A stretch of DNA of 64,000 nt from Trichaptum fuscoviolaceum. Lineage: Eukaryota; Basidiomycota; Agaricomycetes; Hymenochaetales; Trichaptaceae. Where the stretch lies: the NCBI GenBank assembly GCA_910574455.1, contig CAJSYZ010000005.1, positions 124,001 through 188,000 of the forward strand, in the 5' to 3' direction. The notes under the pieces are model-generated. The model had not been told where the DNA came from and did no database searches. It saw only the letters and a program-made list of their open reading frames with translations. This document shows positions 15,028 to 56,360 of the stretch, piece by piece (position 1 is the stretch's first letter; each line of letters opens with the position of its first letter). The position numbers and the translations under genes were made by a program.

Positions 15028-16470
15028 CTACATTATATTCCATTCTTTGTTATACGGGTAGCAGCTCCTTCCCCCTTCCCTGTCACCCGTACAGCCCTCT
15101 TTGTCATCCAGCTTCATCATCTGCGCGATCCATACCACTTTTAATCCCCTTCCGGTCCCGCACCCACTGTTTCTTAATGCGTCTTCTCCATCAAGCGTTT
15201 CATACTTCATGCGGAGCTTCTGAACAACTTTGGATACATGTATCGCAGGCAACCCGAGTCTGGGCATATGATAGCTGGTCGGAAGTGTAGATGAGGTTAG
15301 TCTACACGACATTTAAATACAGCGAAAGTAATGCTTACCCTCGCACCCTCCTGCGTTCTCGGACTCCGCTTTCATCCCAAAATAGTCCAACAGGCCGATA
15401 ATGTTGAGCACGGGCACTGCTGTCCCCAATCGACCAGCTTTAAATATGTAATAGCAAGGTTGGTGTAGAGTAGGAGCCAGATGGTTCAGGGTACAGGACG
15501 TCGGCGTGATGGCCTTGTCCAGGATTTTCCATCCCTTTGCTTTGTGGGTTTCCGAGGTGGTGATTGTCGAAAAGAAAGCACATATTTATTGCCATTTGTC
15601 TCGAAGAACGGTACATGGGTAGCCGAGGCAAGGGTTCTGACACCCTTCTTCAGGCGCGGACGAGACGAGAACAGATGATGGAGCGTCGAGTGCAGACGCA
15701 CGCGCCTCAAAGTATCGACCCAGCTTCAAAACGAGCAGGTCCGTATTCTTGGTTTCCATTTCGGTTGACGAGGAGACTTTAGACGATGAAGCAGAGATAG
15801 TTCCTCGGGACCTGGGTGGCTCAAGGAATGGGTCAAGGGAAAGCCACAGAAAACCTGGATGAGGTGCCTTTTCCCCCAGCGATCGTGCCTGCAATTTCCT
15901 TCCCTGCGCTGCGTAAACGCGTCGTTTTTCACACCTAAAGTCGCAGCGCAGTGCTTTTCGCGAAGCAGCTGGAGCGAAGATGATCACAGCGAGAAAGGAT
16001 CCAATGCTGAACAAGAAGTGGAAGATGAATAAAACAACCGGTTTCGCTGATGTGGATGAAGACGACGTCAAACTTCCAGCTTCCAACCGCTCTCGGACCG
16101 ACAGCTGTCTCCCGTAGTGCACCTCAATCCTGCACCAACCCGTCGATGTTACCGCTTTCTGCACCTGCACATCAACCATCCATCTCGACGTCCCTCAACC
16201 TCCAGCGAGCAACCCATCTCTGCCACTCCTCATCCACGAGCACCCTCTTCGCCCCGCCTTGACCAGATCTCCATCTCACGTGCTCCTCGCGCTCTTTTTG
16301 CACACGTACATTCCCCTACGTGCAAACGCAAGATCACCGACGAAAACGCTCATGACCGGTCGACGACCTCGCTAGCCTATAGAGACAGCTTGTCAGTGAG
16401 CATTTGCAGGTCGCTCGAGACTAGCGAAGAGAACGCTCACGTTTTATGTTCTCTGTATAAACAGCGTACA
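15028..16470 (-). pseudogene. Auxilin-like fragment A1 (linker, TPR and pre-J region)
   Basis: Degenerate minus-strand copy of the C-terminal half of the auxilin gene at 45899-49368. Matches by eye: the RWMIDAQ block as SRWMVDVQVQ near 16170, the TPR start as LKLGRYFEARASALDA near 15700, and the pre-J helix (FEAVQKLREANKALEAEDA in the intact gene) as VSKVVQKLRMKYETLDGEDA near 15190. The copy has many frame changes and no J domain. Between the RWMIDAQ block and the TPR it carries a segment absent from the intact gene, including CCTTCCCTGCGCTGC near 15897 and a hydrophobic frame (FIFHFLFSIGSFLAVIIFA), also found in copies A2-A4 and A12. Confidence 0.7.
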
Positions 16471-16489
16471 GCCTGATGCTTGACGACGG

Positions 16490-16810
16490 TGACTTTTGCT
16501 CGTGATCCAGTCCATCGTGGCCCAGAGACCTATTGTGCAAGATTGCCATCCAATCCATCATCCGAGTCTCCTTCAAAGCGACAATCACGACTGTCGGTTT
16601 ACGTATTGGCATCTGCGTAAGGTCAAAGTCCGGATGAGTGCTCATGGAGAAGATGAGGTCCATTATGTAGTATGGGATGTCGGGGAATAGCTGAAGGCTT
16701 ACAATCATGACATCGGCCTGTGGTGGGAACTAAATATAAGTTGAGTTCACCATATTATGAGCTTGTGAGCCAAGGTATGATTATTTCTGGATGCTTGGGA
16801 ACATCTTAGG
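16490..16810 (-). pseudogene. F-box/LRR family fragment F1 (N terminus)
   Basis: Minus-strand remnant matching residues about 30-100 of the F-box/LRR proteins: SLQLFPDIPYYIMDLIFSMS followed by THPDFDLTQ and MAILHNRSLGHDG. The first 30 residues are decayed and the F-box-like and LRR parts are missing. It abuts auxilin fragment A1. Confidence 0.7.
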
Positions 16811-17259
16811 AAGAGAGTTGCTAGACGAGAAGTTTGAAGCTCGAACGCACCTTCAACTTAGATTGTGGCTAGTGTTGTGTTTTATTTTGTTGGTCTTGTA
16901 TTACCTCAGTCACGGGCTTGGAACTTGAGCCCCAATCCGACTCAAGTTCAACTTGAATGTGATGACCTTTTGTCCCAACCATCTCTCTCTTCAACTGTAA
17001 GAGACATGATAGGGTACAATCATGTTAGAATCATCCGAATCGTCTCTTATCTTCATCTTCAGATCGCGTCAGGTTTTTACCCGGACGGCACCTCGCAACA
17101 CTTATTCTTCCGTCTATCGTGACTCGTGGAGATGGAAACATCCTAGACTGCTGATAACCGCCACAGACTTCGATAAAATGATATGTGCAACTATCAAGAG
17201 ATGTTCTTTACGACGGGGCTTCCTGAACTCAAGCGCATTCTTCCTGTCCGTGAACAAGC
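16811..17259. other. Intergenic, presumed promoter of the alcohol dehydrogenase gene
   Basis: No gene. A CTTGAG/CTTGAA word cluster (near 16920-16955) resembles those elsewhere in the window. Nothing else distinctive. Confidence 0.35.
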
Positions 17260-21014: not shown

Positions 21015-22649
21015 CTATACGCACAGACTCGGATATTGCAGCTCCAAATCAATAGAGCACTTTATTCCCGCATTTCGACAAAGACTTTTCATCAATTCTT
21101 CGAATTCTCGAATTCGATTACGCCTATTCTGTGCCTCCTGCTTATCTAACTCGTAATAAAAGTAATCAAAGGATCGCGTCCAGACAACTAGTGAAAATGA
21201 CTTCAGTTCGGAAAAGAGGACGTCGGATATTATGCCGAGGATGCACTTTGTCCACACGGCAACTTCCTCGACCTTGGACCATGTTGCATTCATGACTCGT
21301 AGGTTAAGACTCCGAATAGTCACGGGTATACTGGATACGGTGTCAGTGATAGAGGCCATATCCACATCAAGAGTGATGTCTTTCAGGCTAGAGCAGTACG
21401 GACCAATCCACTTCGTCCATTGGCCTGCTCCGTTGTCGCCTTTAATGTGCAATGAGCGGAGCTGATTGAAAACAACGGTGCACTGGGAGGGATGAAACAA
21501 TCGCGTTGTAGTTTCATCGAAGTCAGGGTCTCGAAGGTGGGTACAGACGATATGCAATGATTCCAGGTACGGTTTCGAGAGCGTAGATAGTCTACGCAGC
21601 GTTTCCAACTCGGTTTCGTGTGAAGAAAATACACATTTCATGATCAAGCTGGTCAAGCTCATGAAATCCGTTCCTCGTAATGACTTTCCTTGGGTTGTGT
21701 CAGAGAACCTTGCACCTTCTAAATCCAAAGTCTTGAGATGCTTTAGATTCCCGGAGGTTTCTGCCAGAGAGTCGAGAATAAATGGGGCTGCGTAATCCGG
21801 CGCGTGTAGGGTAATATCCCTTAAATGCGTGTTTCGTAGAACCATTTTCCCTATCGTGTGATTAGCCCACTTGGTGAAGAATGAGGCATAGCTTTGCATC
21901 CAGATACTTTTGAGATTCGTGAAACTGACAAGAATGCGGTGCACGTTCTCAAACCACTCGCGATAGTCCTCCTCGAAATCATCCAGAAAGTAATATTCAT
22001 AGTATTCTCCCTGATCGTCTAAGCGGCAGTACATTTGAAAAGCGACGACGGTCGTCCAAGGACCGAAGATTGATTTCCATGCGGTGGACGGGGCATAGAG
22101 CAATCTGCTTCCATATGCGGGTTCATTGATGAAGAGGATTCGACCAAGTGCTTTCTGAGAAGGGATTGTCCAGGATCGATGAACGAGGCACATTTTCCTT
22201 AAAGACCATTCCTCTTCACTGTAGCGGTTATATTCATACACCAACTGCATATAATGTAGATCTTCAAACGTAGACTTGATCTTTGCCATTCTTCGAGAAT
22301 GGATAATCTCCAGAACCTCTTCCAAAACGAACAGGGGGAAGCCAGCCTGCTCTATACGACCATCACGATCTAGAGGCCTTTTGTGCACGATTGCCACCCT
22401 GTCCTTCATCCGGCTCTCCTCCAAAACGTCGATCACATCTATCGAGCTGCGCAGCTTCACCTGTTTGGGGTCAAAGTCTGGATGAGAGATTGTGGATAAG
22501 ATGAGATCCATGGTGCGGCATGGGACGTCGTGGGACAGCTGAAGACTTGCAATCATAGCATCGGCCTTTGATGGAAAGGAAACATATGTGGAGCTCGCCT
22601 TATTATAGGCTTGAGAGTCAATGAAAGGCTGTTGGTTGCCGGCTGACAT
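21015..22649 (-). CDS. F-box-like/LRR protein, copy F2
   Basis: Single-exon gene, 544 aa, of the family amplified in this window. The start is set by alignment with paralogues (MSAGNQQPFIDSQAY); an upstream ATG adds 20 unaligned residues. The conserved N-terminal block (about 1-90) ends in DVIDVLEESRMKDR. An F-box-like helix bundle follows (FVLEEVLEIIH ... CLVHRSWTIPSQKALGRIL), then the family block KSIFGPWTTVVAFQMY, then irregular leucine-rich repeats (LKTLDLEGARF, LRSLHIKGDNG with WTKWIGPYCSSLKDITL) and a C-terminal helix (RIREFEELMKSLCRNAGI). The expected role is substrate recognition for an SCF ubiquitin ligase; the F-box match is weak, so this is inference. Auxilin fragment A2 lies directly upstream on the same strand. 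Confidence 0.8.
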   Translation of the reverse strand: MSAGNQQPFIDSQAYNKASSTYVSFPSKADAMIASLQLSHDVPCRTMDLILSTISHPDFDPKQVKLRSSIDVIDVLEESRMKDRVAIVHKRPLDRDGRIEQAGFPLFVLEEVLEIIHSRRMAKIKSTFEDLHYMQLVYEYNRYSEEEWSLRKMCLVHRSWTIPSQKALGRILFINEPAYGSRLLYAPSTAWKSIFGPWTTVVAFQMYCRLDDQGEYYEYYFLDDFEEDYREWFENVHRILVSFTNLKSIWMQSYASFFTKWANHTIGKMVLRNTHLRDITLHAPDYAAPFILDSLAETSGNLKHLKTLDLEGARFSDTTQGKSLRGTDFMSLTSLIMKCVFSSHETELETLRRLSTLSKPYLESLHIVCTHLRDPDFDETTTRLFHPSQCTVVFNQLRSLHIKGDNGAGQWTKWIGPYCSSLKDITLDVDMASITDTVSSIPVTIRSLNLRVMNATWSKVEEVAVWTKCILGIISDVLFSELKSFSLVVWTRSFDYFYYELDKQEAQNRRNRIREFEELMKSLCRNAGIKCSIDLELQYPSLCV

Positions 22650-22989
22650 TTTCAAACAAGAATTGCTGTAGGATTTCGTTCCAGAGGACCTAAGACTCAA
22701 GTGAGTCATATCGGTACTGTTGTGATTTGTTTGGGTCCTCAGTCCCTGAAGGTCAAACGGACAAGTCTACGATTCAGTATCATCAAGCCTTCATGGCTTC
22801 TCGAAGCACAAAAATTATGCGCAAAAGGTATAACAATGGGTAGAAAAAGCAATACATTTGTAGTTTACATGACAACTCATGACCAAAAGGGAGGAAGAAA
22901 GCACGGGGTTGGAGAATTATGTTAGTCCGAATAATCTGATTGCAACATGATGCAAAGATGTAGAGAACACATTCCTCTGTTGCTCTAGT
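22650..22989. promoter_or_regulatory. Upstream region of F-box copy F2
   Basis: Non-coding on both strands as far as I can see; presumed promoter of the minus-strand F2 gene between it and auxilin fragment A2. No specific element identified. Confidence 0.3.
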
Positions 22990-25260
22990 TCATTCACCTG
23001 CAAAAGCCATACGAAACTTGTCACAGTAACCAACAACAAGAATATGAATATCCACAAAGTGGCCAAAAAAACCTAGTCCACATGCAACTCTGGAAAGGCT
23101 TTCACATACCCAGAGTCGTGCCTTCAGACTTCTCACCAGAACACAGATCATGGCGAGCACTGGTCCATCTCCTTCCCCCTCCCCGTCACTCGAATTACTG
23201 CGCCCTCCACCTCCATCCTCTGCACATTACAGAACGTTTTACGCCTTCTTCTAGCCGCATGTCCACAGTGTCCTTCCTCCAGTGCTTTGTTTGTATTGCG
23301 AAGATTTTGGAGGGTCTCGAATGTCTACATCTCAGGCAGAGATGCGCGCCGGGTCTGGGGATTTGCAAGATATCTTTAGTATGTAATGACATTTCGATAT
23401 ATCGCGAACGCAATACTTACGAAATTTAGATTCGCCTAACAGCGCCTCGCTTCATATCCTCAAAGCCCACTCACAGCGGATAGCCGTCTTCCGAATCTCT
23501 AGCGCCATCGTCCACGTCTTCTTCCCGTCTGCTCCCACCCCACCCCCGAAATCCTATGACACCGCTCCAGTAAGGTCCAAGACTGCAGCCTATTCTGCCT
23601 TCTAGACCTTCATTTCCTTCCCAAGATGGCACGACAGGCCGACAATGTTGAGCTGTGCCATGTCCGACTACTGGGCTTGAAACGTGCAGTAATGCGGAGT
23701 TTACGCAGTCGGAAACAGGTTGTTCCATCAGGACGTCGCGATGTTGTTCCCTTTGGTTTGTGTTTTTCGAGGTGGTGATCGACGATAACGAAGTACATAT
23801 CGTTTGCCATCTGACTCGGCAACCGTGGTCGGAACTTGAACAAGGCACCGAAAAAGTTGATCGGTGGGTGTGATCGTCCTTCATGGGGCGCGTGAAGGTC
23901 CAGTTGCTTTGTAGCATGACGAAACAATGAAAAGTGGTTCAGGAGTAGCGCGTCGTGTGCAGGCGCGTACGCCTCAGTGTATTGGCCCAGTTTCAGGTTG
24001 AGTAAGTATGCTCCCTTGGCTTTGTGATTTGTGACGCGATGTTCGTCGACGGTGGAGCAGAGATATTTCCCGGGATCAGGGTGGTCGAGGCGGCATTTGG
24101 CTAGACGCAGAAAGATTTGGTTGAAGCTAGCCATAGACCAGCTGAGAGTAAACCGAAAGAAGTGCAACAGATTCTGCGCTTTCCTTCCCTCCGCTGCATG
24201 ATCCCCTTCATGTTTAGCGACAACAATTCATACAACGACTCGGTGAATCTTTTGAAGCAGCTGACGCGGAAGATGATTAGAGCAAGGGAAGAGTCGGCGA
24301 TGAAGAGGCTGAAGACGATGGCATCACCGAGGTCGATGATATTGTTGCAGTCGAAGACGCGGGAATCCATACCGAACTTCAGACTTCCAGCCGTTTCCGA
24401 ACCGACTATGTGTCTAACGTTATGTGCCTATTGTCTTGCATCAGCCCGTCGATGGCACCGCCTTCCTATCTGCAACCTGCGTGTCAACTATCCATCTCGA
24501 CCTCCCTCATCCGCCGCTGATCGCCCCTTTCGCACCACCTTGATCCCAGCTCTAACTCGTACTCCCAATCATTACTCTCCTTCTACGGCGCAATTACACG
24601 GATGAACACGCGCAGGACCAACCGGTGTCTACAAGGACAGGCTTGTGCAGGTCGTTCGAGACCAGGGCAAAGGACGCTTACGATTGCGGTTTATTGCTTG
24701 CAGAGCCCGATGCTTGACGATGCATAGTTGGCTTGTGAACTTCGTGTCGTGTTCGAGTCCCGGGGCCCAGATCCTGAGCTTCAACATTCAACACCCTTAA
24801 TCGCTACTCATCCCTATTGTTGCCAAGATGCCGTTCGGTCAAGTCTGCAGCAGTTTCAATCAGCGTTATCACAGCTTGAAAGGCACTTGAAGACCGAGAA
24901 GCAGAGACAATGCAGCCTATGTAGTAGATCGTTATATACCCTTAGCCAATGTAACACGCTGAAATGAAACTTGACTAGCGTACCAAGGTTTTTCGCTTCC
25001 AATTAGAGTCAGCGGACTAGGTTAGTTCCTCACTATATCAGCGCCACCCTCTCCAACCGCAAAGGAGCTCGAGAGATGAACTTCTCTGTCATCTAGGTAG
25101 AAATCGCCAGGACCAAGCCGAAGACAGTAATGAACTGTCTCGGCCTTTAAATTTAAAGCTGACGATGTTTGGTATAGTTGATTGGCGTAATGGGAAATAA
25201 TGATAGAATGCCGAACAAGATCGTAGGCATCGGAAAAGAGCAAGTTGTCAGCTGGCGAGG
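22990..25260 (-). pseudogene. Auxilin-like fragment A2
   Basis: Degenerate minus-strand copy. It retains a repeat-module piece (PGDFYLDDREVHL...VGEGGADIV at about 25050-25130, matching the PGDFDFGDRED module of the intact gene) and an intron-like stretch near 24965-25020. The TPR start appears as LKLGQYTEAYAPAHDALLLN near 23950, and a second related piece, VDHHLEKHKPKG, near 23780 suggests a nested duplication. It shares the extra segment with A1, A3 and A4 (CCTTCCCTCCGCTGC near 24182 and the frame QRREGKRR). It has multiple frame changes and no J-domain HPD. It precedes F2 on the minus strand. Confidence 0.7.
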
Positions 25261-25939: not shown

Positions 25940-26200
25940 ATGAACTTTGAAACTAAACACTCTATGCCACCGCATTGACAAAAATGTTGCAACGATTCTT
26001 CGAATTCTCGATTTTGATTACACATAAACAGTGCGTCCTGCTGGCGTGCTTATTCGTACACGCAACCCTAGTATTGATAGTGTCCCTCCGAAACATGTAC
26101 ATAATGAGAATGAGTTCAGGTCAAAAAAGTGACCGGAGGAAAATAACTCCCGGATGTCCTTCATCCGACCAGTAACTGCCTCAATCTCCAGATATTTAAT
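25940..26200 (-). pseudogene. F-box/LRR family fragment F3 (C terminus)
   Basis: Not visible as an open frame, but the DNA matches the 3' ends of F2 and F5. The antisense reading near 25990-26010 (GATTCTTCGAATTCTCGA) matches 21087-21106, and 26112-26165 (TTCAGGTCAAAAAAGTGACC and following) matches the F5 segment encoding the WTKCILGIF...SDLKSF region. It is degenerate at nearly every codon. It lies just downstream of auxilin fragment A3 on the same strand, as expected for an auxilin-then-F-box unit. Confidence 0.65.
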
Positions 26201-26319
26201 CGTACATGCTTCAGTTTAAACAAGACAAAGACCCGGAAAGAGACCAAATACGCTTTGTCCGCATGCATGCCCGATTTAGTCTCCATGCACCAGATGGCGA
26301 GAGCTCCGGTTCAAGGCTC

Positions 26320-28290
26320 GCGTATGTTCTTCTCCTTTTCCCTCCCTGTGCGCAAGTAGTTATGCAACATCCGCGAAATCAAGCTCCATCCTCTGCGCAT
26401 TCCATAACATTGGTCGCCTCCTTCCAACTGTACATCACCTGCGTCTTAAAGCGTCTTTTTTGCATCGAGCGCTTTGCACTTCTTGCGTAGCTTTAGGACG
26501 GCTTCGGCTATCTGCGTCGCAAGGGAAAGTGACCGACAGGTTTAGGAGCTGATTGAAATTATGAATTGGTGCGTTATTTGCCAATGAAAACAGTTACTTA
26601 CCACTGTTACCAGGATCGCAACATCATCTTCACCTTGCAACTACATTCGGTACACCGCTTCGCGCCTTCATAGCACACTCACATTCACCAACCGTCCTCC
26701 TAAGTCCCGCCTCACGACTTCTTCCCAACTCTGATAAGTCTCCAACACCGCTACAGGAAGGTCCACGACTGCACCCCCCACTACCTTCTCAACCTTCGCT
26801 TCCTTCACAAGATGGTATGGCCAGTTGGCGATGTTCAGAGTTGCCGAGCAGCGCTCGAATTCCAGGCTTAAAGCACTGAGCTGCCGGCCTGTTGTGTAGT
26901 TGAAAGAGGAGTTATACCAAGTAATTCGTGGATACGACATCGGCGTATTGCCTCAGGCAGAATATGTGCTCGCCCTGTGCTTTGTAATGCAAGGCCGCAA
27001 TCATGGACAAATAAGCACATCGCGCAATGGAGCTCCGAAAGCTGGATGAGGCGCTGTTTTGCTGTAACGTGATGGGACGAGAGCAGGTGGTTCGCGAGCA
27101 GAGCATCGTGCGCAGCCGCGTACGACTCGGCCACGTCGGTACCCATGACACTGTGTCTGATCGACACGGCGATTGTTGATGGTGAAGTGGGAATAGTTTC
27201 CAATTATCAGGATGTATCGGAGGACGGTGCTTGGCCAGCTGAACAGGGCGCAGAAGGACTTGCTCGAGAACTGAGCACCTCAATTTGAACCAAAAACAAT
27301 TTGCTTTTCGCCCCAGGTGTTCCTACACTTTCCTTCCCTGCGCTGCCTGACCCTCCTCATACTTTGCTACGTCAACCTCAACGAAGGCTCAGAACTTCCT
27401 GAAGCAGCTGACGCAGAAGGCCATTACAGCGAGGGAGGAAGCGATGTTGATAAAGAGGCGGAAGACGGTAAAATGATTGAGATCGATGACGTGAATGAAG
27501 ACGAGAGGCGGGAAAGCGGAATACCATGGCGAATTTCAAGCTTTCAGCCACTCTTCAAGCGACTCCGTGTCTCGCGTCGTGCACCCACACTTATTGTATG
27601 AGCTCGCGAGGTCAGCCTTCCCAACTGCTACCTGCGCATCAACTTTCCATCTCAACCTCACCCATCCGCCGTCGAGCGCCCCTATCACACCGCGTTGACC
27701 CGAGTGTTTGCTCGCGCGCTCCTCATACACCCTGTGCACGCAATCCTTCCAACCTTCTAATACGCAATTGTACGTGTGAATATGCCCAGGACCTATCGGC
27801 AAGCTGTCGCAAGTCGCTCGAGTCCAGGAAAAAGGTTTTCACGATCAGACTGTACGCGAAGTACTACGTTTGACGACGCAGAACTTCGGACTTCGTCTCG
27901 TCTTCAAGGTAGCAAATCCTCAGTTTCGATAACCATGACCTTATTGTCCTCGATCGCGACTGCCAACTTCCATCGGTCGAGCCTCTAATCGATATTTCCA
28001 TAGCGCGAGAAACCAAGCAAGTTCGGAGACCAATATCGCCAGCCGCGCTTGTCTGGGTGCGAATGACACCTACAAATAGTCCATCATGTGCCTAGTAAAT
28101 CAACGTGTCCTTATCCAATGCAAGACAATGCAGCGCAAGTTGATCAGCATACCGAGGTTCTTCGCTTCGAGGTGAAATTCACTATTTAACTAGGATTCTC
28201 GAAGAAAATCGTCGCCACCCAGTTGATCCTCTCCGTCGGCTCAACGGAAGTCGCCAGCCAAGGGCTGAGCAGGTGATTCTTTGGTCGCAT
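26320..28290 (-). pseudogene. Auxilin-like fragment A3
   Basis: Degenerate minus-strand copy. The pre-J helix is readable as TQIAEAVLKLRKKCKALDAKKTL near 26460-26530. It carries the shared extra segment with CCTTCCCTGCGCTGC at 27332-27346. Near 28130-28200 it retains the intron-exon boundary sequence following the PGDF module (compare 47060-47110). No intact J domain and many lesions. Together with F3 it forms one decayed unit. Confidence 0.65.
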
Positions 28291-42609: not shown

Positions 42610-42840
42610 TCACTTTAAAAATGGAAAACGCTGATTTATCTGTGTCTCTGTTGGCATACTTTCCGCCGCAACAGTAAATAGTCTGTGTGGAGGCAGCACT
42701 TGAGACTTTATCCACTTGTTCTTTTCTACGAACACTAGCATATATTCATCAGAGAAGCTTGCTCCTTCTAAGTGAAATTTTTGTAAGTTCTGCAATATCC
42801 TTGAGTCTTCATGAAAGGATCAAGGGAAAATGACTCTTGG
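42610..42840 (-). pseudogene. F-box/LRR family fragment F6
   Basis: Minus-strand piece reading LQNLQKFHLEGASFSDEYML, matching the LRR strand KNLKTLNIQGAQFSDEAHE of copy F9. Nothing else of the gene is preserved here. It lies just beyond the truncated 3' end of F7 but overlaps its aligned region, so it is a separate copy piece, not its tail. Confidence 0.6.
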
Positions 42841-44309: not shown

Positions 44310-44759
44310 TACGGAGAAGACCAGAAGAGTTGGCGTTATCCAGTACCCAAGTTGCAAAGACGATAGGAGTGGACACTGAAGGTGAAGGAGAGCATGCTAT
44401 ATAATGATTCGAGTTCAGGAGTTAGACCGAGTCATCCCTTAGAGTTTTCCATATGTTAATGTGACTCGTGGTGGTATAATAAGCTCATCTCCAACGGTTC
44501 CGAGGCTGTAAGGAGTAAAAGAATAGATGACTCAGGGATACTGTTGACAAAGATACACATATTCTGGATATAGATAGACACAAGGCTTTGAACGAGAAGC
44601 TAAGTCAAAGATATACGGGAGACTGAAAGATCTGGAGGACGCTGACTGACTTTTGATTGCAAATAAATTTCCTTCCAACGCCGCGAGAGCGCCATAAGCG
44701 ACTGTCATAGGTTCAACGTGCAAGCCTGTCAAGCACAGAATCAAAAGTCAGAAACACAG
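44310..44759. other. Intergenic, presumed upstream region of F7
   Basis: No gene. Short distance from F7 start suggests promoter function. Nothing specific seen. Confidence 0.3.
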
Positions 44760-45250: not shown

Positions 45251-45429
45251 ATGTTTAGATTGATTGTAGTTTAGTGTTGAAGCTTGAAAGCAATCGCAGA
45301 CCCAACCCCTTCAAATGGTACTGTCGATGGAGGGACGCGGGACATCATGGGCCATCTGAATGCTTGTAGTTATACCATCGGTTTTTTTAGTGAAACAAAT
45401 CATAGGGTCGGGGGTTCATGGAAATTTGA

Positions 45430-45660
45430 TTCGAGTCCGAGTCATCGTCTTCAACGCCCTGCGACCGAGACTCTTCCGTAACTTTGATAGCATTCGCAGA
45501 GTTGCGTAGCGTTGAAGTTCTGACTTCGACGTTCCGAATGCTGACCGCGAGGAATACGAAGTGCATGGGATGTTGAGAAGTAGATGGAGTCTTGCAAGCA
45601 TGCCAGTGGATCGGCCTAAGGGCCTTTAATGAGAAGGTGAAATAGGTTGAGCCAAACCCG
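45430..45660 (-). pseudogene. F-box/LRR family fragment F8 (N terminus)
   Basis: Minus strand. MLARLHLLLNIPC matches MLASLQLFHNVPC, and after a small deletion FDVRTSTLRNSANAIKVTEE in another frame matches FDSKQVTLRNSDDVIDVVEE. Only about 60 residues are left. It sits 240 bp upstream of the intact auxilin on the opposite strand. Confidence 0.65.
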
Positions 45661-45898: not shown

Positions 45899-48800
45899 AT
45901 GTCCGATTCCTTTGCAGATTTATGGTCTTCTCTTGAGCCCGTAAAACAGAGCGCAAAGCCATCAACGCTCGCTGCTGCCAGTAAACTGCAAACGACGACG
46001 ACAACAGCGCAATCGCGAGCTAACGACGCGTTCTCTATGCTTGCCGCCGCTTCTTCGTATTCCTCCTCGCACCCCGCATCACGCTCACTGACACCCTCTG
46101 TTTCTCTCCAACCCCAACGTCCTGCTTCTTCTCAATCTCAGAAAAAGACCTCGCAAGTTCAAGGCGGCAAGAATGGCGATGCTTTCGGTTCGCTGTTGTC
46201 TGCATCGTTCTCCTCGTCGAACAACCCGGGAAACTTGTCACTGGCCGCACGACAGGAGGCGGCAGTGAAGGAACAGCGGGCACGACTGGAGAGGGAGAGG
46301 CTGGAAAAGGCGAAGGAGGCAGATGCGTGGAATGGCCTGGATCTGCTTGCGCAAAGCAGTTCCAAGTCCACCCCCGTTGTTCGTAGTCGATCCAACAATC
46401 CTGGTGATTTCGACTTTGGAGATAGAGAAGATCGATTATTGAATGGCTCTGGGGAGCTTGGCTCAGAAGGTGAGGGCGGTGATGATATTCTTGGAATGTT
46501 CGCAATGCCCGCAGATTCCATTCCGAAGCCAAGTATCTCGGTACGTTGATCAAGTTGAGCTGCATTATTTTGCATTTGCTAAAGATAATTCACTAGCCTA
46601 CGGAAGCACCTCCTCCACACTCCAAGTCTACTTCGTCAACTAACATAGCATCGAACGACGATTGGTTCTTTGACAAACCCACTCTTCCGTCTTCATCATC
46701 ATATCCTACTCCGCCGGATGAAGACTTCCGCCCTGCACCTTCAATACCGAATTCACGTTCTCACTCACTAGTGCAGACGCCTAAAGCGTCTACATCCTTG
46801 TTCGACATACTCTCCAATGACTTCTCTCTGCCATCGTCACCGAACACAGCGGACAACGGCAGCCTAAGCTCTCAAAATCCGCCTAAGATTCGCGATATTC
46901 CGTCACCCGTAGTACGCATCCCACCCAACAGTTCTGGTGATTTCGATCTCGGCATTAGACAAGATGGGTTATTGAATGGCTCTGGGGAGTCTGGGTTAGA
47001 AGGGGAAGGTGGGGACGATATTCTGGGAATGCTCGCAAAGCCTGTCAATTCCATCCCGAAACGAAGAATCTCGGTACGCTAATCAAGTTGAGCTGCATAA
47101 TTTTGCAATAAGCTAATGATATACTATTATTTGATTAGCCTACGCTGGCTCAAAGTCGAGATAGATCATCATCCACAGCTCGTAGTCGACCCAATACCCC
47201 TGGTGATTTCGATTTCGGAGATAGAGAAGATCGACTGTTGAGTGGCTCTGGGTCAGAAGACGAGGGTGGCGATCATATTCTTGGAATGCTCGGAAAGCCT
47301 GCAGATTCCATTCCAAAGCGAAGAAGCTCGGTAAGTTGATGAAGTTGATCTGTATAATTTTGCATTTGGCTAAGGATGTACTACTAGCCAACGCAACATT
47401 CCTCTCAAACATCCGGCTTACAGCCACGACAAAGAACTAGCTCTCCCCCTCCGCATGTTATCGGACAGATTGTCGAGATGGGATTTTCACCCGAACAGGC
47501 TCGACTGGCGCTCGCAGCCACCGACTCCGGGTTAGACGTTCCGCAGGCATTGGAGATGCTGCTTGCAAACGGTGCAGGCTCGACCGAAGACGAGGATGTG
47601 CATTTCGGAAATGGGAGGACGAGAATCAGACAAGAAGATGTTGAAAGTGAGGACTTAAGACTTAGGACTCGAACACGAGATGACGTTCAAAGACCACCCA
47701 TGCGCCGTCAGGCATCGGGATCAGCACGTAGTCAGCCGCATGCGCAAGCTTCTCTGGTCCCAGGCGACCTCCAGGAACGCGCCGACAAGCTTATCTCACA
47801 GGCGAGCGAGATCGGCCTGAGCGTGTTCAGCCGGGCAAACGCGTTCTGGAAGGAGGGGAAGGAACGCGTGCAAAAGGTGTATGAGGAACGTGCGAGCTCG
47901 AGTCAAGGGAACACGAAGGGACGCTCCCCGGCTGACGGGAGGCCGAGGTGGATGATTGATGCGCAGGTAACGGATGAAGTCGTCGAGGGTGGTGTTCATA
48001 GTGCGAATGGCGGATTCAAAGACGGCGAAGAAACTGAAAGTGGGGAAGAAATATTGGGCACTTCACGAGACCCTCGGCGGGCTGAAGCTAGAAAGGAGGT
48101 TCAGGAGAGAGATAACAGTTCTGCTTCCAGTTCAGCTGGTCGACGCATGGCTAACCTACTTGGTGACGAGCCTACCACATATGTGTCCCCGTCTCGAAGA
48201 AGAAACGCCGCGACACGCACACCTCAACCTGCGCCTCAACCACAACTAAACCTGCCTGTTGCGCGCCCAGTTGCCCGACGACCATCGCCTGAGCCACTCA
48301 GAACTCGTAACGCTATCTCAGCGTCACTGTCTAAGATCGCCGCGTCGAATACCCACAAATCCAAGGGCACTGAACTATTCAGGCTCGGCCAGTACGCCGA
48401 CGCCGAAAAGGCATACGCGTCGGCACTCGCTGCGCTGCCTGAAAACCACTTGCTGCTCGTACCGCTACACAACAACCGCGCCGTCACGCGCCTCAAGACG
48501 GGTGACCACACCGGGGCGATCGAAGATTGCTCTGCTGTGCTTGCCATCATCGGCCCAACCTACCACCCCGCGCGTGAGGCGAAGGTCACGCGTGCAGAAG
48601 AGGGTGCGACGGTGGACCTGGCCGACGCAGTGGTGAAAGCGTATCGGAGGCGGGCGGAGGCTTTTGAGGGGCGGGAGAAGTGGGCAGAGGCGCTGAAGGA
48701 TTGGGAGGCAATCGTTGCGTGTGAGTGGGCTGCTAAGGCACGTAGTGAGGCGTTGAATGGGATTGCGAGGTGTAAGAAGATTTTATCTTCTGAGCGGGAG

Positions 48801-49368
48801 CCTGGTATGTGTTTCCCTGGCTTTCTACGTACATTCACCACAACACGCTCAATCTTCTGCGCCCAGCGTCAAAACCCCGCAAAGCACCTCCACCCCAGAC
48901 ACGGCGCACGTCCCCGCCTGTACAACAGTCATTTGAAGCTGTGCAGAAGCTGCGCGAGGCGAATAAGGCGCTCGAGGCAGAGGACGCGGAGCGTCTGACG
49001 CTGAAGGACTCAGTGGACGCCCGGCTGCTCGCATGGCGCGGCGGGAAGGAAACAAACCTGCGCGCACTGCTCGCGAGCCTCGAAGCTGTGCTCTGGCCAG
49101 GGCTGGGCTGGCAGAAAGTCGGGATGCACGAGCTCGTGACTCCTGCGCAGGTGAAGGTGCGGTACATGAAGGCGATTGCGAAGCTGCATCCGGATAAGGT
49201 GAGTTTACGTTTTCTATTTCTGATGTGTTGGGTTAACTTGGATCTAACTTTTTTCTTGTTGTTATGTGATTGCAGTTGAACGTCTCAAATACGACGCTGG
49301 AGCAGCGGATGGTCGCTAATGGTGTTTTCGCGGCGCTGAACGACGCCTGGCTTGCGTTCAAGCAATGA
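45899..49368 (+). CDS. Auxilin-like J-protein (Swa2 type: UBA, TPR, J)
   Basis: Intact clathrin-uncoating cofactor that recruits Hsp70 to clathrin-coated vesicles. Exons 45899-46540, 46597-47073, 47139-47330, 47388-48804, 48867-49198 and 49276-49368 give 1050 aa. The N terminus is Ser-rich and disordered (DAFSMLAAASS, DAFGSLLSASFS). Exons 1-3 each end with the same module (GDFDFGDRED...GDDILGML...SIPK) followed by a similar phase-0 intron of 56-65 nt. Exon 4 has a UBA domain (about 460-500: HVIGQIVEMGFSPEQARLAL), the linker KERVQKVYEERASS, and a TPR region (about 747-902: LFRLGQYADAEKAYASAL). Exons 5-6 have the J domain, with HPDK at about 1017-1020 right before the last intron. UBA-TPR-J is the architecture of yeast Swa2. 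Presumably single-copy essential-type; all other copies here are broken. Confidence 0.9.
46389..47387 (+). repeat. Three-fold exon-module repeat in the auxilin gene
   Basis: Units start near 46389, 46923 and 47189. Each encodes about 50 residues (GDFDFGDREDRLLNGSGE, GDFDLGIRQDGLLNGSGE, GDFDFGDREDRLLSGSG) ending in SIPK and is followed by a GTACG/GTAAG intron with related sequence (TTGATCAAGTTGAGCTGCAT type). Unit plus intron has evidently been duplicated in tandem. Acidic DILGM elements may contact clathrin or adaptors (inference). Confidence 0.8.
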
Positions 49369-50035
49369 TCGGCACTCCGTTAAACTTGCATGTACTGGTT
49401 CTCGCGTAATATTCTTGTTACAATACGACTATCATCACAGACTGTAGCGCCATACGTCTTACTGTAATCTTGGTCTTTGGATCGTTGTCATCGTTGTTTT
49501 TCTTACATAATTATACGTCCGTTTTATCTTCGTATTCACTGTTTGTTTCAGATATCAGATACTTTATTCGGGCTGTCGCGATGGTAGTCTCATACTAGGC
49601 TTGCGTGGGTCATGATATTCACACTTGCTTCGTAGCGTGATAGACTTCTTACTCACGCATAGGCGTTTCATGTGTTACAAGAATGGTTCTGAATATAACC
49701 TTCATTCTTTTTGAACTACACATCTGTCGCTGGATCGCTTTCCTTGGTGCTAATGGATAAAGGATCGATCTTCCTCCAAAGTTCAAAGATAGCAAAGTAA
49801 TCTCCCGCTATAAAGACGAGCGGCTGGCAGAGGATTTTCGTCTTATTGTTACAATGTCAAAGCTATGTGCAGTAATATTTTAGAGGTTACAATGATGAGT
49901 CAAATCGATTCCGAGTCGGCATCACTGTACTACTTGTTCAAACAAAACAAAACAACCTGACTGCGCGAGTGACTCGGACTCGGAGCTTCAATCTAGTCAA
50001 TCCCTCTTACAATCACTGCAACATATCTCTCCAGA
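49369..50035. promoter_or_regulatory. Terminator of the auxilin gene and promoter of F-box copy F9
   Basis: T-rich 3' region follows the auxilin stop. Upstream of F9, 49905-49990 contains ATTCCGAGTCGGCATCACTG, an ACAAAACAAAACAACC stretch and GTGACTCGGACTCGGAGC. The last 50 bp (CAATCCCTCTTACAATCACTGCAAC) resemble the region just before F10 (AATCCCTCTCGACTCCTGAC then TGCAAC), a candidate conserved core promoter. Confidence 0.4.
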
Positions 50036-52318
50036 ATGTCCTACGCCTTCGATCAACCGTTTATCGACTCTCAAGCTTTCGTTAGGAAGACAAAAAGCTA
50101 TGTGACGTTTCCTTCGCAGACCGATGCCATGCTCGCGAGCCTCCAACTGTTTCACAACGTCCCATGTCGGATCATGAACCTCGTATTCTCTGTGGTCACT
50201 CATCCAAATTTTGACTCAAAACAAGTGACCCTTTTTGACTCGGCTGACGTGATTGACGTTGTGGAGAAAAGCCGGCTGGAGGAAAGGATGGCCGTCGTCC
50301 ACAAAAGGTCACTGAATAGCGATGGCTACGCGGAGCAGGCAGGATTCCCGCAGTTCGCTTTAGACGAGGTTCTGGACATTATCCACGCCGAGCGGATGGA
50401 AAGGCTCAAGGCTCAGTTTGAAGAAACCATAGATCCCCGGGAGATGTTTTTATATTCAATGCGCATCGAAGAGGACACCACTCTAAAGGCAATGAGCCTT
50501 GTTCACCGGTCTTGGGCTACTCCTGCACAAAAAGCGCTTGGCCGGGTTCTCCTTATCGGCCGGCCGACAGAGGAGATGATGGTACTCCGTTATCCCGTAC
50601 GAAAGTCCATCTTCGGTCCTTGGACATGCGCTGTGGCCATACAATTATACCACCCCGTAAAGCTGAAATCGGACGGTAGCGCTGATTTCGAATATTCTAC
50701 GGTTCATGCTAGCGACCACCAGGAGTGGTTCGAAAATCTACACGGCATCCTTGTTGGTTTCACGAACCTCAAAAGTCTCTTCATCAAAAGCTATACAACG
50801 CTCTTTACCGAATGGTCTAATCCCACGATCAGGGAGATGATTAAACGCAACAAGCAATTAGAGGAGATTACCCTTAATGCGGTGCATAGTGTGCCATTTT
50901 CTCTTGATCCTCTGATAGATATCCCCGGAATATCAAAGAATCTAAAGACTTTGAATATACAAGGAGCACAGTTCTCTGATGAGGCACACGAAAAGGCGAT
51001 TCAAGGGCCGGGCTTCCCGTGCTTAAGCAATTTGACGATTTCGCGATCTTACCAAACGCTCGACGAGGACTTCATGATATTTTCCCTACTATCCGCCCAA
51101 TCCAGCTCTTGCCTAAAATCGCTGCGCATTATCGATAATAAGGGAAGATTTCAATCCTCTAAAGAGGCACGGGATTTTCCTCTTTCACCGTATGCCAACA
51201 TCTTGAAATCGCTCTCCGTATTGTACATTCATGGATCGGAGTCGACTGACGAATGGCTCGAATGGATTATCCCTCACTGCTCCAGTCTTGAGTCGCTCAC
51301 CATCATTGATTCCTCGGACCGGAGTGGGTGGCGGGTAAAGGAAAGCATAGATCGAGCATCCACTCCGCAGTACACTGCTGTCTTTGGACGTCTCCGTTCA
51401 CTGCACATAGACAGCAGGGATTCTTCAGATTCATGGTTTGAATGGATTGTCCTATACTGCTCCAGCCTCGAATCGCTAAGCATCATCGACCGCAACGAAG
51501 AAGTAAAACCTCTTAACGCTGACACAGGACGATTATCAACTCCACAAAGCACCGTTGTCTTAAAACACCTATGTAACTTGCGTATTGACAGCAAGAATGC
51601 CCCAAATGTATGGACGAAATGGATTGGTACCTACTGCTCCAGCCTCGAGTCGCTAACCATCATCGACAACGGCAAAGGAATACCGTCCGACGAAGACGGC
51701 ATAACTCCCCCACAGATTGCTGTCATCTTCGAACATCTTAGCACTCTGCGCATAGATAGCAAGGGAAATGCAGACCTGTGGCTACAACTTATTAGCCCCT
51801 GCTACTCCGGCCTCGAGACACTAAGTGTTAATGATGCACGTAACATGTCGAACCGCATCTCCATCGTCTACCACCCCTACTTGCTTCGCATTGACGGTGA
51901 TGAGGCAACAGATCTGTTCATGAAGTGGATCAGCCCTCACTGTTGTAGTCTTAAAGCACTCAATCTCAAGACGCACAAGCCCTTGCCTTGCTATTCGCTA
52001 TCCATTGTACCCGCCACCATTCAGACATTCGGCCTGCAAGTCTTGTCTCTTTGGCGTTGGGAAATCGGAGAGATTACTGTTTGGATGAACAATTTTCTGA
52101 ATGCAGTTTCATCCCAACAATTATCGGAATTGAAATCAGTTACGCTTTCTGTTGCGAGGGACCGGTTAGATTATCTGGTGCTCTATGCCAGGGATGAAGA
52201 GGCGAAGGCACTACGTTCAAAAATCCGAAGTCTGGAGGAGAAGGCTAGCGCTGTATGCAGAAGAATTGGGGTCGAGTGTTCCATCATTAGAAAACATCAC
52301 ACAGGTATATCACAATAA
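50036..52318 (+). CDS. F-box-like/LRR protein, copy F9, with expanded repeats
   Basis: Single-exon gene, 760 aa, the longest family member. N-terminal block 1-90 (MSYAFDQPFIDSQAF), F-box-like segment about 103-172 (FALDEVLDIIH ... MSLVHRSWATPAQKALGRVL), KSIFGPWTCAVA at 190-201 and early LRR strands to about 370. Residues 385-645 hold five tandem repeats where full-length paralogues have one. The C terminus (WMNNFLNAVSSQQLSELKSV and a helix) is as in the others. No lesion. The repeats are diverged, with charged variable residues between constant ones, as expected of a recognition surface. The intact auxilin lies upstream on the same strand, a complete unit. Confidence 0.82.
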   Translation: MSYAFDQPFIDSQAFVRKTKSYVTFPSQTDAMLASLQLFHNVPCRIMNLVFSVVTHPNFDSKQVTLFDSADVIDVVEKSRLEERMAVVHKRSLNSDGYAEQAGFPQFALDEVLDIIHAERMERLKAQFEETIDPREMFLYSMRIEEDTTLKAMSLVHRSWATPAQKALGRVLLIGRPTEEMMVLRYPVRKSIFGPWTCAVAIQLYHPVKLKSDGSADFEYSTVHASDHQEWFENLHGILVGFTNLKSLFIKSYTTLFTEWSNPTIREMIKRNKQLEEITLNAVHSVPFSLDPLIDIPGISKNLKTLNIQGAQFSDEAHEKAIQGPGFPCLSNLTISRSYQTLDEDFMIFSLLSAQSSSCLKSLRIIDNKGRFQSSKEARDFPLSPYANILKSLSVLYIHGSESTDEWLEWIIPHCSSLESLTIIDSSDRSGWRVKESIDRASTPQYTAVFGRLRSLHIDSRDSSDSWFEWIVLYCSSLESLSIIDRNEEVKPLNADTGRLSTPQSTVVLKHLCNLRIDSKNAPNVWTKWIGTYCSSLESLTIIDNGKGIPSDEDGITPPQIAVIFEHLSTLRIDSKGNADLWLQLISPCYSGLETLSVNDARNMSNRISIVYHPYLLRIDGDEATDLFMKWISPHCCSLKALNLKTHKPLPCYSLSIVPATIQTFGLQVLSLWRWEIGEITVWMNNFLNAVSSQQLSELKSVTLSVARDRLDYLVLYARDEEAKALRSKIRSLEEKASAVCRRIGVECSIIRKHHTGISQ
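51188..51970 (+). repeat. Five tandem LRR-type repeats within F9
   Basis: Coding repeats of about 52-60 codons with the pattern LxxLxIdS....W..WI..yCSSLESLtIID: units at residues about 385-436 (LSVLYIHGSES), 445-486 (LRSLHIDSRDS), 502-545 (LCNLRIDSKNA), 559-600 (LSTLRIDSKGN) and 610-645 (YLLRIDGDEAT). Copies F2, F4 and F5 have one such unit. Confidence 0.8.
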
Positions 52319-52489: not shown

Positions 52490-54900
52490 CGGCGGCGCAA
52501 ACTGGCATACGCACCAGCAAAATCAACATTTTGTCCCTTTACCGCATCCTCTATCTGCGCAATTTTCTCCACCGAAAGACTCTAGCGATTTCGATGATAC
52601 TGGCTAATAATTGTTGGCACCTCTCAAACAGCTCTGGTGAATGTGTCTTTGTTAAAACAGCAAGCGTCGGCGTCGAACCAGACTATGAAGGAGCGAAGGC
52701 GAAGGAGATGAGTGCTTGCAAAGGACTTGATATACTGGCGCACGGTATGTAGCTGCATTGTACTATATGTCCTACCAGGTACTGAGCTTTTCTCATCGTC
52801 AGTCAAAGGCAAACCCGTCGTCAGCGTCGACAGCCTTGGTCAACTACAACAACTTTCTTCAAGTGTGCGGACTTCATCCTCCCAACAAACAGCAGATCTT
52901 TTACATCACGCTCTAACTCAAGATTGAAAATGTCCACCCCATCTGCAATGAGTATATGACCCAACAGGCTTAGCGATGTTGACATTGGCGACAGAGAAGG
53001 TTGACTGGTGAATGGCTTCTGGTCTCATTGACTCTATACCAAATAAAAGACTCGGGTACGCTTTTCAGGTTATGCCACATTATATCGAATTGATTTTGAA
53101 TTGATGAAGGACATCTATTCGTCTACTACACGTCCTTCCCCGCTTTCCTGCCACCCAGTCGACAAAATCCTATCACTCCTCTGCATAACTCTGAGGGCAT
53201 CGTCGAGGTTCGCAGGCCCCGATTCGACTGCATACGGAAACGGCCCAGGCCCGAGGGAGTGCGGGGACGAGTTTATCAATCATGGGAGGACTAAGTCGTG
53301 ATTGGGAACATGCTTGAGGGCCAAGCACCCGAATACGAAACGAAGGTCAACGGTCATGTTTAGCATTGGGTTCTGCGCGTGGTAAGCGGCACGCACAGGC
53401 ACAACTGCATCTTCCCTGGTCTCGGACGACCCGCAAATTACCCCGATAACCTTTTTCGCGTACGAGATCGCCGGGCAATTGGATTCTAGGAGGAAAGGTT
53501 GCAGCGTATGCAGAGGGTGTATGGGAAACACGGCAGCTTGAGGCCATATCAATGCGATGTAAGATGGCGGTGGCGGTCGACGGCAGCGGATGGGGGGTCA
53601 AGATGGATATTCGACTCGCACAAATGGTGGCAAAGCATTGTGAGGAAAAGGAGGGCGGCGAAGCGATACTACATGCAGTACATGTACGAGGGCAACGTCG
53701 GGCAGGAAAGGAGCTGACGATGAGGAACCTTCACGCTCATAGTTGTTCTCGTCGTTCCGCATCGTTGTCTTCATCCACGCCACCACACTCATCCCCTGGT
53801 CATTGCTTCAGGAAATTCACCGATCCTTGGCCTCTTTTTCCTGTCCTTGCATTGGCCCGGATGGCGAATCTATTGCTGAGACAGACGAAGATCCCCAAAC
53901 AGCTCAGCAAAGGAAAGTGCAAGAACACCAACTGGGGGACGAAAGTGGAATATCCTATCACAAAATCAAGTGCTCGATGTCCGGTACCTCCCCGCTTTGG
54001 CTACCCATCTCCCCTTGCCTTCCTACTTGCAGACCAGCCTGTACGCGCTCCTGTACTGTCAATGAAGCCTGTGACACACGCGCTTGCCACAACCTCAATC
54101 CCAGCTAGTATTTTCTTGCGCCTTATCGTGGTATCTGAGCGCCATCTCTCGCTCAAGATGGCAAACATCCTGTGTTTCTCCATCGTCAATCATCGCCTCG
54201 AGCAAACATGTAGCGAAGTGGTCGGAGATGTTCGGACTGGCGCAACACCCCGACATCCTGCTCATGAATCATCTGATATACCTTCTCGTGCTACGCTCAA
54301 CATCATCGACATTTCTTTCACCGAGGGAAGGAGGCGAAAGAGGAGAAGACAGAAGAGATTGCAGCAGTGGACCCTGCTGCGGCGATGTTGGAGGCTTATT
54401 TGAGTTTGGGCAGAGGCATACGAGCGGAAAAGGCTTTGGACGTGGTCCGATGTGGTGAACGGAGTTGCACGACTTACCATGATATCGCGATTTTGGTAAG
54501 CATTTCTTTCACTCCCTATCGATTGACCAGTATATACGAAATGCATCTCACTTCTCCACCAAGCTTCCAATCATATCCGATGCGCATCCTTGCATGCCAT
54601 ACAGACATTCGAAGTCGTTCAGAAGCTGAAGGAGATGAACGAAACGCCGGGGCATGTGTCGCGCAGAGGATACAGGGTCGTACTAGAGTAGACGCGCGGC
54701 GGAAAGGAGATAATCCTGCGCTCACTGCTCGCGAGCCTCAAGGCGGAGGTGTGGCCGGAGCCAGAGCGGGTAATGGTTTTGGATGAGGCGCGTGCTGCTT
54801 TCCTGGTCCTGTATCGTTCGATTGACTTTTTTGCGGTCGATTGTAGTTGGATGTATCTGATACCGCACTGGAGCGACGGATGATCACTAGCGATGACTAG
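52490..54900 (+). pseudogene. Auxilin-like fragment A12
   Basis: Degenerate plus-strand copy upstream of F-box copy F10. It begins with EGAKAKEMSACKGLDILAHG (52690-52747; intact gene: LEKAKEADAWNGLDLLAQSS). Then QRVYGKHGS and GSRWIFD (53520-53625) match the VYEER and RWMIDAQ blocks. The segment near 53890-53930 (CAGCTCAGCAAAGGAAAGTGC) corresponds to the extra segment of A1-A4. The J region near 54700 reads LRSLLASLKAEVWPEPE, but the HPD signature is absent. It has many frame changes. Confidence 0.7.
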
Positions 54901-55334
54901 CAACCGGTATGCTCAGGCTGTACTAGTTGCCATCTAGTTGTCGCTATACTAGATACTGGTGCGAACATTAATGTAAGTATTGTCTCGCGTTAAATAGTAG
55001 CTGCGTCACATATTATTTCTTTCCATGATTTAGCACTTTGCCTATTTCTTATGCGAATTTCATGCTCTATATTTACAATCTAGCTCATATTAAGCATACT
55101 GTGTGGGATATGTGGTTGTTAGGAAGGCGATCGAATGGCGGACATCAATTGCCAAGACCATCCTACTGAATTGACGTCGAAAAAAAAGTTTGATCCGACC
55201 CACCTAGCAACGAACCTCAAATTGGCGACTCAAGCAGATTAAAGCAACGTATAGTTCGCAAGCTTTCTGAAAGTTCAAATCCCTCTCGACTCCTGACTGC
55301 AACATTCGACAACAAAAGCCTCCTGAGATACTAC

Positions 55335-56360
55335 ATGATTTCTTACGCCGTCAACCAACCGTACATTGACTCTCGTGCGTACAACGAGGCTAACTCAACC
55401 TATGTCGGGTTTCCGTCGCAGTCTGATGCCATGCTTGCGAGCCTCCTGCTGTTTCACAACGTCCCATGTCGCATCATGGACCTTATCTTATCCGTGGTCA
55501 CCGACCCGGACTTTGACCCAAAGGACGTGACTTTGCGCAAGTCGGTGGACATAATTGACACCGTGGAAGAGAGTCGGTTGAAAGATAGGATGGCCGCCGT
55601 CCACGAACGGACTCGTGATCATCATGGCGACGATGGGCATATAGAGCAGGCTGGTTTCAACTTCCCCCGCCTCGTGTTGAACAACGTTCTAGACATTATT
55701 CACGCGGAGCGGATGGACGATATTCGGGCTCAGTTTGAAGAAACTCTGAGTATAGGATCGATGCATACTATGCGCGTCAAACAGGACGTCACTCTGAAGG
55801 CAATGAGTCTCGTCCACCGATCTTGGACTGCTCCTGCCCAAGAAGCACTTGGCCGGATCCTTTATATTGGCGAATCGACGGAAGATATGGACATCTGCCT
55901 ACCTCCCGTGCGCAAGTCGATCTTCGGTCCTTGGACATCCGTTGTCGCCGTACAATTCTTCCCCCAGATAAGATGGGTTCCAGAAGAATATTGTAAATAC
56001 CTTGAAATCGAGACTGTTGTTGATGTCGATGATTTCTGTGGGTTCGAAAACCTGCATCGCATTCTTGTCGGTTTCACAAATCTCAAAAGCGTCTTTATCA
56101 AAGCCTATGCCGAGCCCTTCACAACATGGTCGAATCTCACATTTGCGGAGATTGTCCGACGTAATATCAACCTGGAGGAGGTTACATCGGGAAAAAGGCT
56201 CCCAAATGGTAGCCGATTTCGGACGATTCCGGCGTATATAATCGGATGTCGTCCCGATTTAGCAATATCAGGGAGCTGCCATGCAGACGGCAGCATATCA
56301 TCTGATATCATCATGCTGCCATCCGACAAGGCCTCCGTCGTACTGACAGCTTTCTGGTAA
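55335..56360 (+). CDS. F-box-like/LRR protein, copy F10, C terminus replaced
   Basis: Open frame of 341 aa. It follows the family up to about residue 280 (MISYAVNQPYIDSRAY, FPRLVLNNVLDIIH, MSLVHRSWTAPAQEALGRIL, KSIFGPWTSVVAVQFF, ILVGFTNLKSVFIK, RRNINLEEVT), then diverges into about 60 unrelated residues ending at 56360. The junction lies near 56188. The new tail DNA contains an inverted repeat (GGCAGCAT at 56289-56296, ATGCTGCC at 56313-56320). Most LRRs are lost, so it is a truncated or chimeric member; whether it is functional is open. Confidence 0.7.
   Translation: MISYAVNQPYIDSRAYNEANSTYVGFPSQSDAMLASLLLFHNVPCRIMDLILSVVTDPDFDPKDVTLRKSVDIIDTVEESRLKDRMAAVHERTRDHHGDDGHIEQAGFNFPRLVLNNVLDIIHAERMDDIRAQFEETLSIGSMHTMRVKQDVTLKAMSLVHRSWTAPAQEALGRILYIGESTEDMDICLPPVRKSIFGPWTSVVAVQFFPQIRWVPEEYCKYLEIETVVDVDDFCGFENLHRILVGFTNLKSVFIKAYAEPFTTWSNLTFAEIVRRNINLEEVTSGKRLPNGSRFRTIPAYIIGCRPDLAISGSCHADGSISSDIIMLPSDKASVVLTAFW

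Follow-up and report, generated by a model that had tools for sequence, protein, structure and literature searches.

Swa2-type auxilins are J-proteins that, together with Hsp70, uncoat clathrin vesicles; in fungi the Swa2 arrangement combines UBA, TPR and J domains. When a tandem segmental duplication breaks within a neighbouring gene, the cut gene travels along as a passenger fragment and decays. As to the F-box families of mushrooms, PMC7567395 gives a number of 210 F-box genes for Flammulina filiformis. Here we describe a 64-kb stretch of the genome of Trichaptum fuscoviolaceum, very likely a wood-decay fungus (C5:124001-188000, referred to as the window), in which an intact Swa2-type auxilin gene lies among decayed auxilin-derived copies (A) and copies of an F-box-like/leucine-rich repeat (LRR) gene (F). 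Our favoured explanation, to which we assign a probability of about 0.78, is that tandem duplications starting inside the auxilin gene have left truncated passengers in an F cluster that evolves by birth and death.

The intact gene resembles Swa2/auxilin in its UBA and TPR domains and its C-terminal auxilin J-domain with HPD motif, and has many relatives in named Basidiomycota, some of them named SWA2 by their source; it differs in its position within a fast-changing cluster near a contig end, in being accompanied by decayed copies, and in carrying three exon-intron repeats. FBXL-type proteins (SKP2, FBXL2, FBXL17, TIR1, D3/MAX2) are among the best fold matches of the F5 structure model, but the F family differs from them in that none of 21 members scanned matched the Pfam F-box at E-values up to 1. 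With birth-and-death clusters, including mushroom F-box families, the F cluster shares paralogues, tandem neighbours, remnants and purifying selection, whereas its repeated unit also holds a fragment of a housekeeping gene. The array is a clear case of the known passenger process, except that here the dead passenger seems to have gone through several further rounds of duplication. Literature searches found neither a description of auxilin/F-box amplification nor, as a sequence-only reading of this DNA had supposed, any described system that pairs a Swa2-type J-protein with an F-box family.

An A-F pair is defined here as an A copy directly upstream of an F copy on the same strand. The sequence-only reading had named five such pairs (A2-F2 and A3-F3 on the minus strand; A4-F5, auxilin-F9 and A12-F10 on the plus strand) with further fragments of both genes between them. 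Self-BLAST, tblastn and nhmmer DNA-profile mapping, the matches of which were grouped by the author, placed 10 auxilin-derived and nine F-derived elements at 15-63.5 kb of the window (Table 1), recovering all five pairs in the same order as well as the intervening fragments. Evidence that pairs were copied jointly comes from the spacers. Over about 393 bp, the sequence upstream of F5 shows homology (z 11.1) to that upstream of the F gene at C5:277 kb (F277), and an A copy near C5:280 kb (A280) lies just beyond the homologous spacer, so that A4-spacer-F5 is colinear with A280-spacer-F277, a unit about 120 kb away. Weaker spacer matches were found between F5 and the F gene at 282 kb (z 4.9) and between those at 277 and 282 kb (z 6.3). 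In a Mantel comparison of six units, A identities follow F identities with r 0.62, a value reached by 22 of 720 permutations. Given the colinear units and the correlated divergences, the two genes were most likely duplicated together in a single segment. The claim of a two-gene unit amplified and reshuffled locally is borne out to that extent, but a joint gene family is not supported, since there is one intact auxilin, the tested copies are pseudogene fragments, and F occurs alone at many loci; both partners are open in only one of the five window pairs, auxilin-F9.

Eight A copies carry 11-41 frameshifting indels each when compared with the intact gene, and pairwise differences among nine A sequences amount to 26-53% of aligned sites. 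Within the group A1, A2, A3, A4 and A280, differences are spread almost evenly over the three codon positions (A2-A4, 0.34/0.38/0.37; A2-A280, 0.33/0.35/0.31), while comparison with the intact gene shows a third-position excess (A6, 0.19/0.20/0.35; A4, 0.41/0.41/0.55). The A4 stretch 33740-34000 has an identity of 0.61-0.72 within the group, including a further copy near C5:78 kb (A78), versus 0.35-0.46 to the intact gene, and a segment from 34320 to about 34540 is common to the group, again including A78, but aligns with nothing in the intact gene. The shared derived stretch and insertion suggest a common altered ancestor. In the copies examined, homology to auxilin starts within exons 1-4, and no match extends to the start codon. 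Coding of the pseudo-auxilins in alternative frames was considered and largely rejected: open reading frames (ORFs) of 120-317 amino acids occur in single A copies, and most of them are interrupted in most other copies, although a mid-gene stretch of about 200 amino acids may conceivably code.

We envisage an ancestral state in which an intact auxilin gene stood directly upstream of an F-box-like/LRR gene, and F9 with the intact auxilin likely represents this arrangement. A tandem duplication with one breakpoint within auxilin, near the repeated exons 1-3, and the other past the F gene would yield a unit consisting of truncated auxilin, spacer and a whole F gene; the order auxilin-F9-A12-F10, full and then truncated, is the one predicted by tandem duplication starting inside auxilin. 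Devoid of promoter and start codon, the auxilin part would be a passenger, dead on arrival and left to drift. Copied together with its own upstream region, the F part would be functional, and would be kept and diversified by birth and death under presumed selection on F. Repeated use of such units could generate F-A-F-A arrays, to be modified later by inversions, by copying of single F genes and by mobile-element insertions.

Table 1. Auxilin-derived (A) and F-box-like/LRR (F) elements and related features. Five-digit positions refer to the 64-kb window; positions in kb refer to contig C5.
Element	Position	Strand	Description	Evidence
A1	15061..16529	-	auxilin-derived fragment, fused just downstream of F1	nhmmer; 27 frameshifting indels vs intact gene
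F1	16338..16885	-	N-terminal F-box-like remnant	tblastn, nhmmer
F2	21015..22766	-	F-box-like/LRR gene, open	ORF; P0002 elsewhere, 96% identical protein
A2	22781..25202	-	auxilin pseudogene, directly upstream of F2	profile mapping; 28 frameshifting indels
F3	25955..26210	-	remnant, C-terminal part only	nhmmer, E 2.5e-24
A3	26187..28257	-	auxilin pseudogene, directly upstream of F3	profile mapping; 30 frameshifting indels
F4	30440..32077	+	F-box-like/LRR gene, open, without A upstream	ORF; P0005, 98% identical
A4	33021..35480	+	auxilin pseudogene, directly upstream of F5	profile mapping; 34 frameshifting indels
F5	35480..37192	+	F-box-like/LRR gene, open; source of structure model	ORF; fold comparison
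A5	37312..38574	-	scattered auxilin fragments	tblastn, DNA profile
A6	38620..40600	-	auxilin pseudogene, nearest copy to intact gene (74% of nucleotides)	self-BLAST, nhmmer; 11 frameshifting indels
A7	40662..41283	-	weak auxilin fragments	nhmmer, best E 2.7e-9
A8	41697..42626	-	rearranged auxilin fragments	self-BLAST, tblastn, nhmmer
F6	42960..44396	-	F gene, N-terminus doubled, C-terminus truncated	ORF shared with P0014 (97%)
F7	45313..45646	-	F remnants, head to head with intact auxilin	nhmmer, best E 4.7e-8
Auxilin	45899..49368	+	intact Swa2-type auxilin gene, 6 exons, 1050 amino acids	gene model; Pfam UBA/TPR; auxilin J-domain match
Repeats in auxilin	46373-46605, 46906-47129, 47180-47396	+	three exon+intron tandem repeats within intact auxilin	self-BLAST, 75-80% identity
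F9	49997..52318	+	F-box-like/LRR gene, enlarged LRR part, open; paired with intact auxilin	ORF; P0008, 98% identical
A12	52907..55001	+	auxilin pseudogene between F9 and F10	profile mapping; 36 frameshifting indels
F10, first half	55194..56187	+		tblastn, nhmmer; P0013 is an uninterrupted gene
Insert	56188..62642		about 6.45 kb, splits F10; member of dispersed repeat family; PPR gene 57138-58868 (-)	
F10, second half	62643..63449	+		tblastn, nhmmer, match to P0013
Outside pair	A about 285.1-284.8, F 284.5-282.8 kb, C5	-	A upstream of F	A DNA profile
Outside pair	A 282.4-279.1, F 278.7-277.0 kb, C5	-	A upstream of F	A DNA profile
Outside pair	A 79.0-78.0, F 77.6 kb, C5	-	A upstream of F	A DNA profile

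Alternation of the two kinds of element along a strand is common (A3-F3-A2-F2 on the minus strand; F4-A4-F5 and auxilin-F9-A12-F10 on the plus strand). Exceptions are F1-A1, where F is fused upstream of A, and the minus-strand block F7-F6-A8-A7-A6-A5.

The genome searched comprises 59,093,390 bases in 12 contigs; the 7.85-Mb contig C5 holds the window at a distance of 124-188 kb from one of its ends. No telomere repeat match lies between C4 and C6 among the first 100 of 193 genome matches in contig order, for which reason we call the cluster near a contig end, not subtelomeric. A protein search of the genome with F2 gave at least 83 matches (75 of 112 candidates scored); by the author's grouping, about 26 F loci fall in the first 310 kb of C5, further ones occupy the opposite end of C5 and parts of C10, and weaker matches are scattered over other places. 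The A DNA profile, whose reversed control gave no match, was run on 32 outside loci (24 F loci together with flanks of 1.5 kb, plus eight stretches of 10 kb), so that A fragments lying beyond these stretches could have escaped detection. An A copy adjoins F at three of the 24 F loci (L013, L014 and L035, the first two also within L049), and none was found beside F in the 1.5-kb flanks of the other 21; for two unpaired F copies, 5.1 kb of additional upstream sequence likewise held no A, the one match having an E-value of 0.4. When A4 was used in a DNA search of the genome, matches were obtained only at C5:140-172 kb and 281.6-282.3 kb. The stretch of about 290 bp upstream of F at C5:282 kb (L013) is 84% identical to one upstream of F at C5:305 kb (L019) and is possibly a dispersed element.

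Genes with an A upstream do not form a clade in the F tree: this state requires six changes, compared with a mean of 6.4 in shuffled data, and 244 of 500 shuffles were as low. All seven A-labelled rows nevertheless fall within one group of 17 of the 30 rows (support 84/82), which excludes the C10 and far-end C5 genes. Two sister F genes, one at C5:277 kb that has an A copy and one at 212 kb that lacks it, share a 187-bp match of 95.7% identity that begins about 16 bp ahead of the start codon, which indicates that F genes are also copied alone.

A number of observations weigh against the proposed truncated passengers. When the 19 elements were placed at random in position and strand, five or more pairs arose in 29 of 20,000 trials (mean 1.2), but when the A and F labels were shuffled over the real places, they did so in 4,917 of 20,000 (mean 3.7); since the two tests disagree, the arrangement of the elements does not settle the matter by itself, and the case for co-duplication depends on homology. 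For F2, F9 and F10, no spacer match above z 4 was found, and some F genes lacking an upstream A have similar spacers (F4-F6, z 6.9; L018-L019, z 14.8), which makes the spacer at least partly a component of F. Within the window, F4, F6 and F7 lack an upstream A, and none of A5-A8 is followed by an F on its own strand. Decay is also seen outside auxilin, F3 being only a remnant, and eight of 26 F stretches contain one to four stops, among them the A-paired F at 282 kb with three. For A12 alone, a weak match (E 5e-4) lies farther inside exon 1, so that truncation need not have occurred at one fixed point. The mid-gene stretch is open in several A copies, namely over 225 amino acids in A78, 202 in A1 and A2 and 244 in A12, compared with 211 in the intact gene and 114-156 in A3, A4, A280 and A6. 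Some pairs involving A78 lean to third-position differences (A2-A78, 0.40/0.36/0.48), and together with its open mid-gene stretch this suggests that A78 may have died late or may still code in part. In all 15 unit pairs, the divergence K of the A copies was below the dS of the linked F genes; the three closest pairs had K values of 0.46-0.56 and F dS values of 0.82-1.18, where similar values had been expected. As aligning non-coding DNA lowers K, these values do not in our view prove constraint; the difference could stem from alignment bias or from constraint, and A may still have a regulatory role.

The low K is one of the findings that would suit retention of the pseudo-auxilin within the F unit in a non-coding capacity, as promoter, leader or regulatory RNA, the pairing then being functional at the level of DNA or RNA. 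About 2 kb remain alignable at roughly 60% identity in several units, and in two A stretches conservation rises to 0.75-0.77, the mean being 0.61. Apart from these, however, conservation varies little (standard deviation 0.075), the segment is absent from the examined flank at 21 of the 24 outside F loci, and close F sisters exist with and without it, so that we regard such a role as unlikely; its more specific form, in which the block arose from a housekeeping gene fragment as a retained module of an F-box-like subfamily and spread with it, appears slightly less likely again. A functional module of the two proteins, amplified together and serving for instance ubiquitin-linked control of clathrin uncoating, would accord with the one intact pair kept, auxilin-F9, with the UBA domain of the auxilin and with the FBXL-like predicted fold of the F protein. 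It is very improbable in view of the dead auxilin in four of the five window pairs, where the F partners F2 and F5 are open in this genome and F10 in other assemblies, and of the 21 outside F loci devoid of A in the flank examined. We take the link between the two genes to be positional, and found nothing to favour a functional one over it.

Separate copying of each gene by a retro- or transposon route, with coincidental adjacency, could draw on the dispersed repeat within the array and on the F genes that occur and move alone. Yet A8 aligns over part of intron 1 and A4 over most of intron 3, and this alignment across intron positions identifies these A copies as DNA copies; moreover, the units have a spacer in common, and A and F distances correlate, which renders independent routes highly unlikely. 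Tandem repeats are prone to misassembly, and collapsed or misjoined repeats might produce a spurious array. But the A copies differ from each other far above read error, near-identical F proteins occur in other assemblies, and the reference (TF100210M3), which is very likely the genome analysed here, is described in PMC8970355 as assembled from PacBio reads and corrected with Illumina reads; an artefact can hardly be credited. The same description has chromosome 5 as not ultrascaffolded, the chromosome number being that of the paper and C5 a contig label used here.

The intact auxilin gene consists of six exons (45899-46540, 46597-47073, 47139-47330, 47388-48804, 48867-49198 and 49276-49368) separated by five introns, all with GT-AG borders. 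Its product contains UBA (25.4 bits, cut-off 22.4) and TPR_1 (39 bits, cut-off 27.8) domains; residues 956-1049 match an auxilin J-domain structure (7.6e-17), and the HPD motif is present in the translation, while the general DnaJ model of Pfam stayed below its cut-off (14.1 versus 27.8 bits). Judged by its UBA-TPR-J arrangement, the gene is a Swa2-like auxilin. The closest named auxilins are those of Coniferiporia, Phellopilus, Phellinidium, Sanghuangporus and Fomitiporia, which belong to the Hymenochaetales, the order of Trichaptum. A protein search of the genome with exon 4 gave eight matches, all within the window, one of them the intact gene. The best 120 of 364 protein matches to exon 4 included no other open auxilin of this type; three had identities of 91-100%, and the others did not exceed 55%, apart from two of short cover (59% identity over 35% of the query and 73% over 10%). 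The exon-intron repeats at 46373-47396 encode an acidic motif around GDFDFG...GGDDILGM, whose multiplied copies we assume may be clathrin or adaptor binding sites.

The F5 structure model, built from 21 sequences (pLDDT 72), shows helices followed by an LRR arc. Its best Foldseek E-value and Z are to F-box/LRR ligase receptors, with other LRR proteins close behind; as the F-box label rests on the fold, F-box-like/LRR is the appropriate strength of name. On the basis of this model, the F proteins are probably substrate-recruiting SCF subunits. The 26 sequence matches of F5 are without exception nameless proteins from a single source (label lgn). Eighteen of the 26 F stretches are free of stops, and the mostly open F genes are, by sequence comparison, under purifying selection, with dN/dS ratios of 0.19-0.53 in 14 of 14 F pairs (genes recur across pairs). 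For F2, F4, F6, F9 and F10, proteins with 96-99% identity are found in other assemblies. F6 has a doubled N-terminal segment and no C-terminal half; its 449-amino-acid counterpart P0014 represents 28 sequences, and P0006 is a related form of 747 amino acids. At 50036-52315, F9 has an enlarged LRR region that contains internal repeats, and among F2, F4, F5, F9 and the second half of F10, only F9 scored above the Pfam LRR cut-off.

The locus offers a natural case of one duplicated segment in which one gene has been kept in many copies and the other has not, and it shows a core chaperone gene embedded in a rapidly evolving F-box-like cluster close to the end of a contig. PMC8970355 gives a divergence of 15.7% between T. 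abietinum and T. fuscoviolaceum; the units have diverged further (K of A at least 0.46), and T. abietinum should consequently share the array.

ORFs at 5216-6821 of the window resemble, as we presume, a basidiomycete DNA-transposon protein; ORF 5216-6022, the sole one scanned, had no Pfam match. Pieces of the insert in F10 match 10 of the 12 contigs at 67-95% identity (at least 100 matches; 40 of 206 candidates scored), and the presence of a PPR gene inside a dispersed repeat seems unusual. No target-site duplication of six or more bases was found at the ends of the insert; by eye, its two joints have TAC in common. An uninterrupted F10 is found in other assemblies (P0013, 98.9% identical over 548 amino acids), suggesting that the insertion is probably polymorphic.

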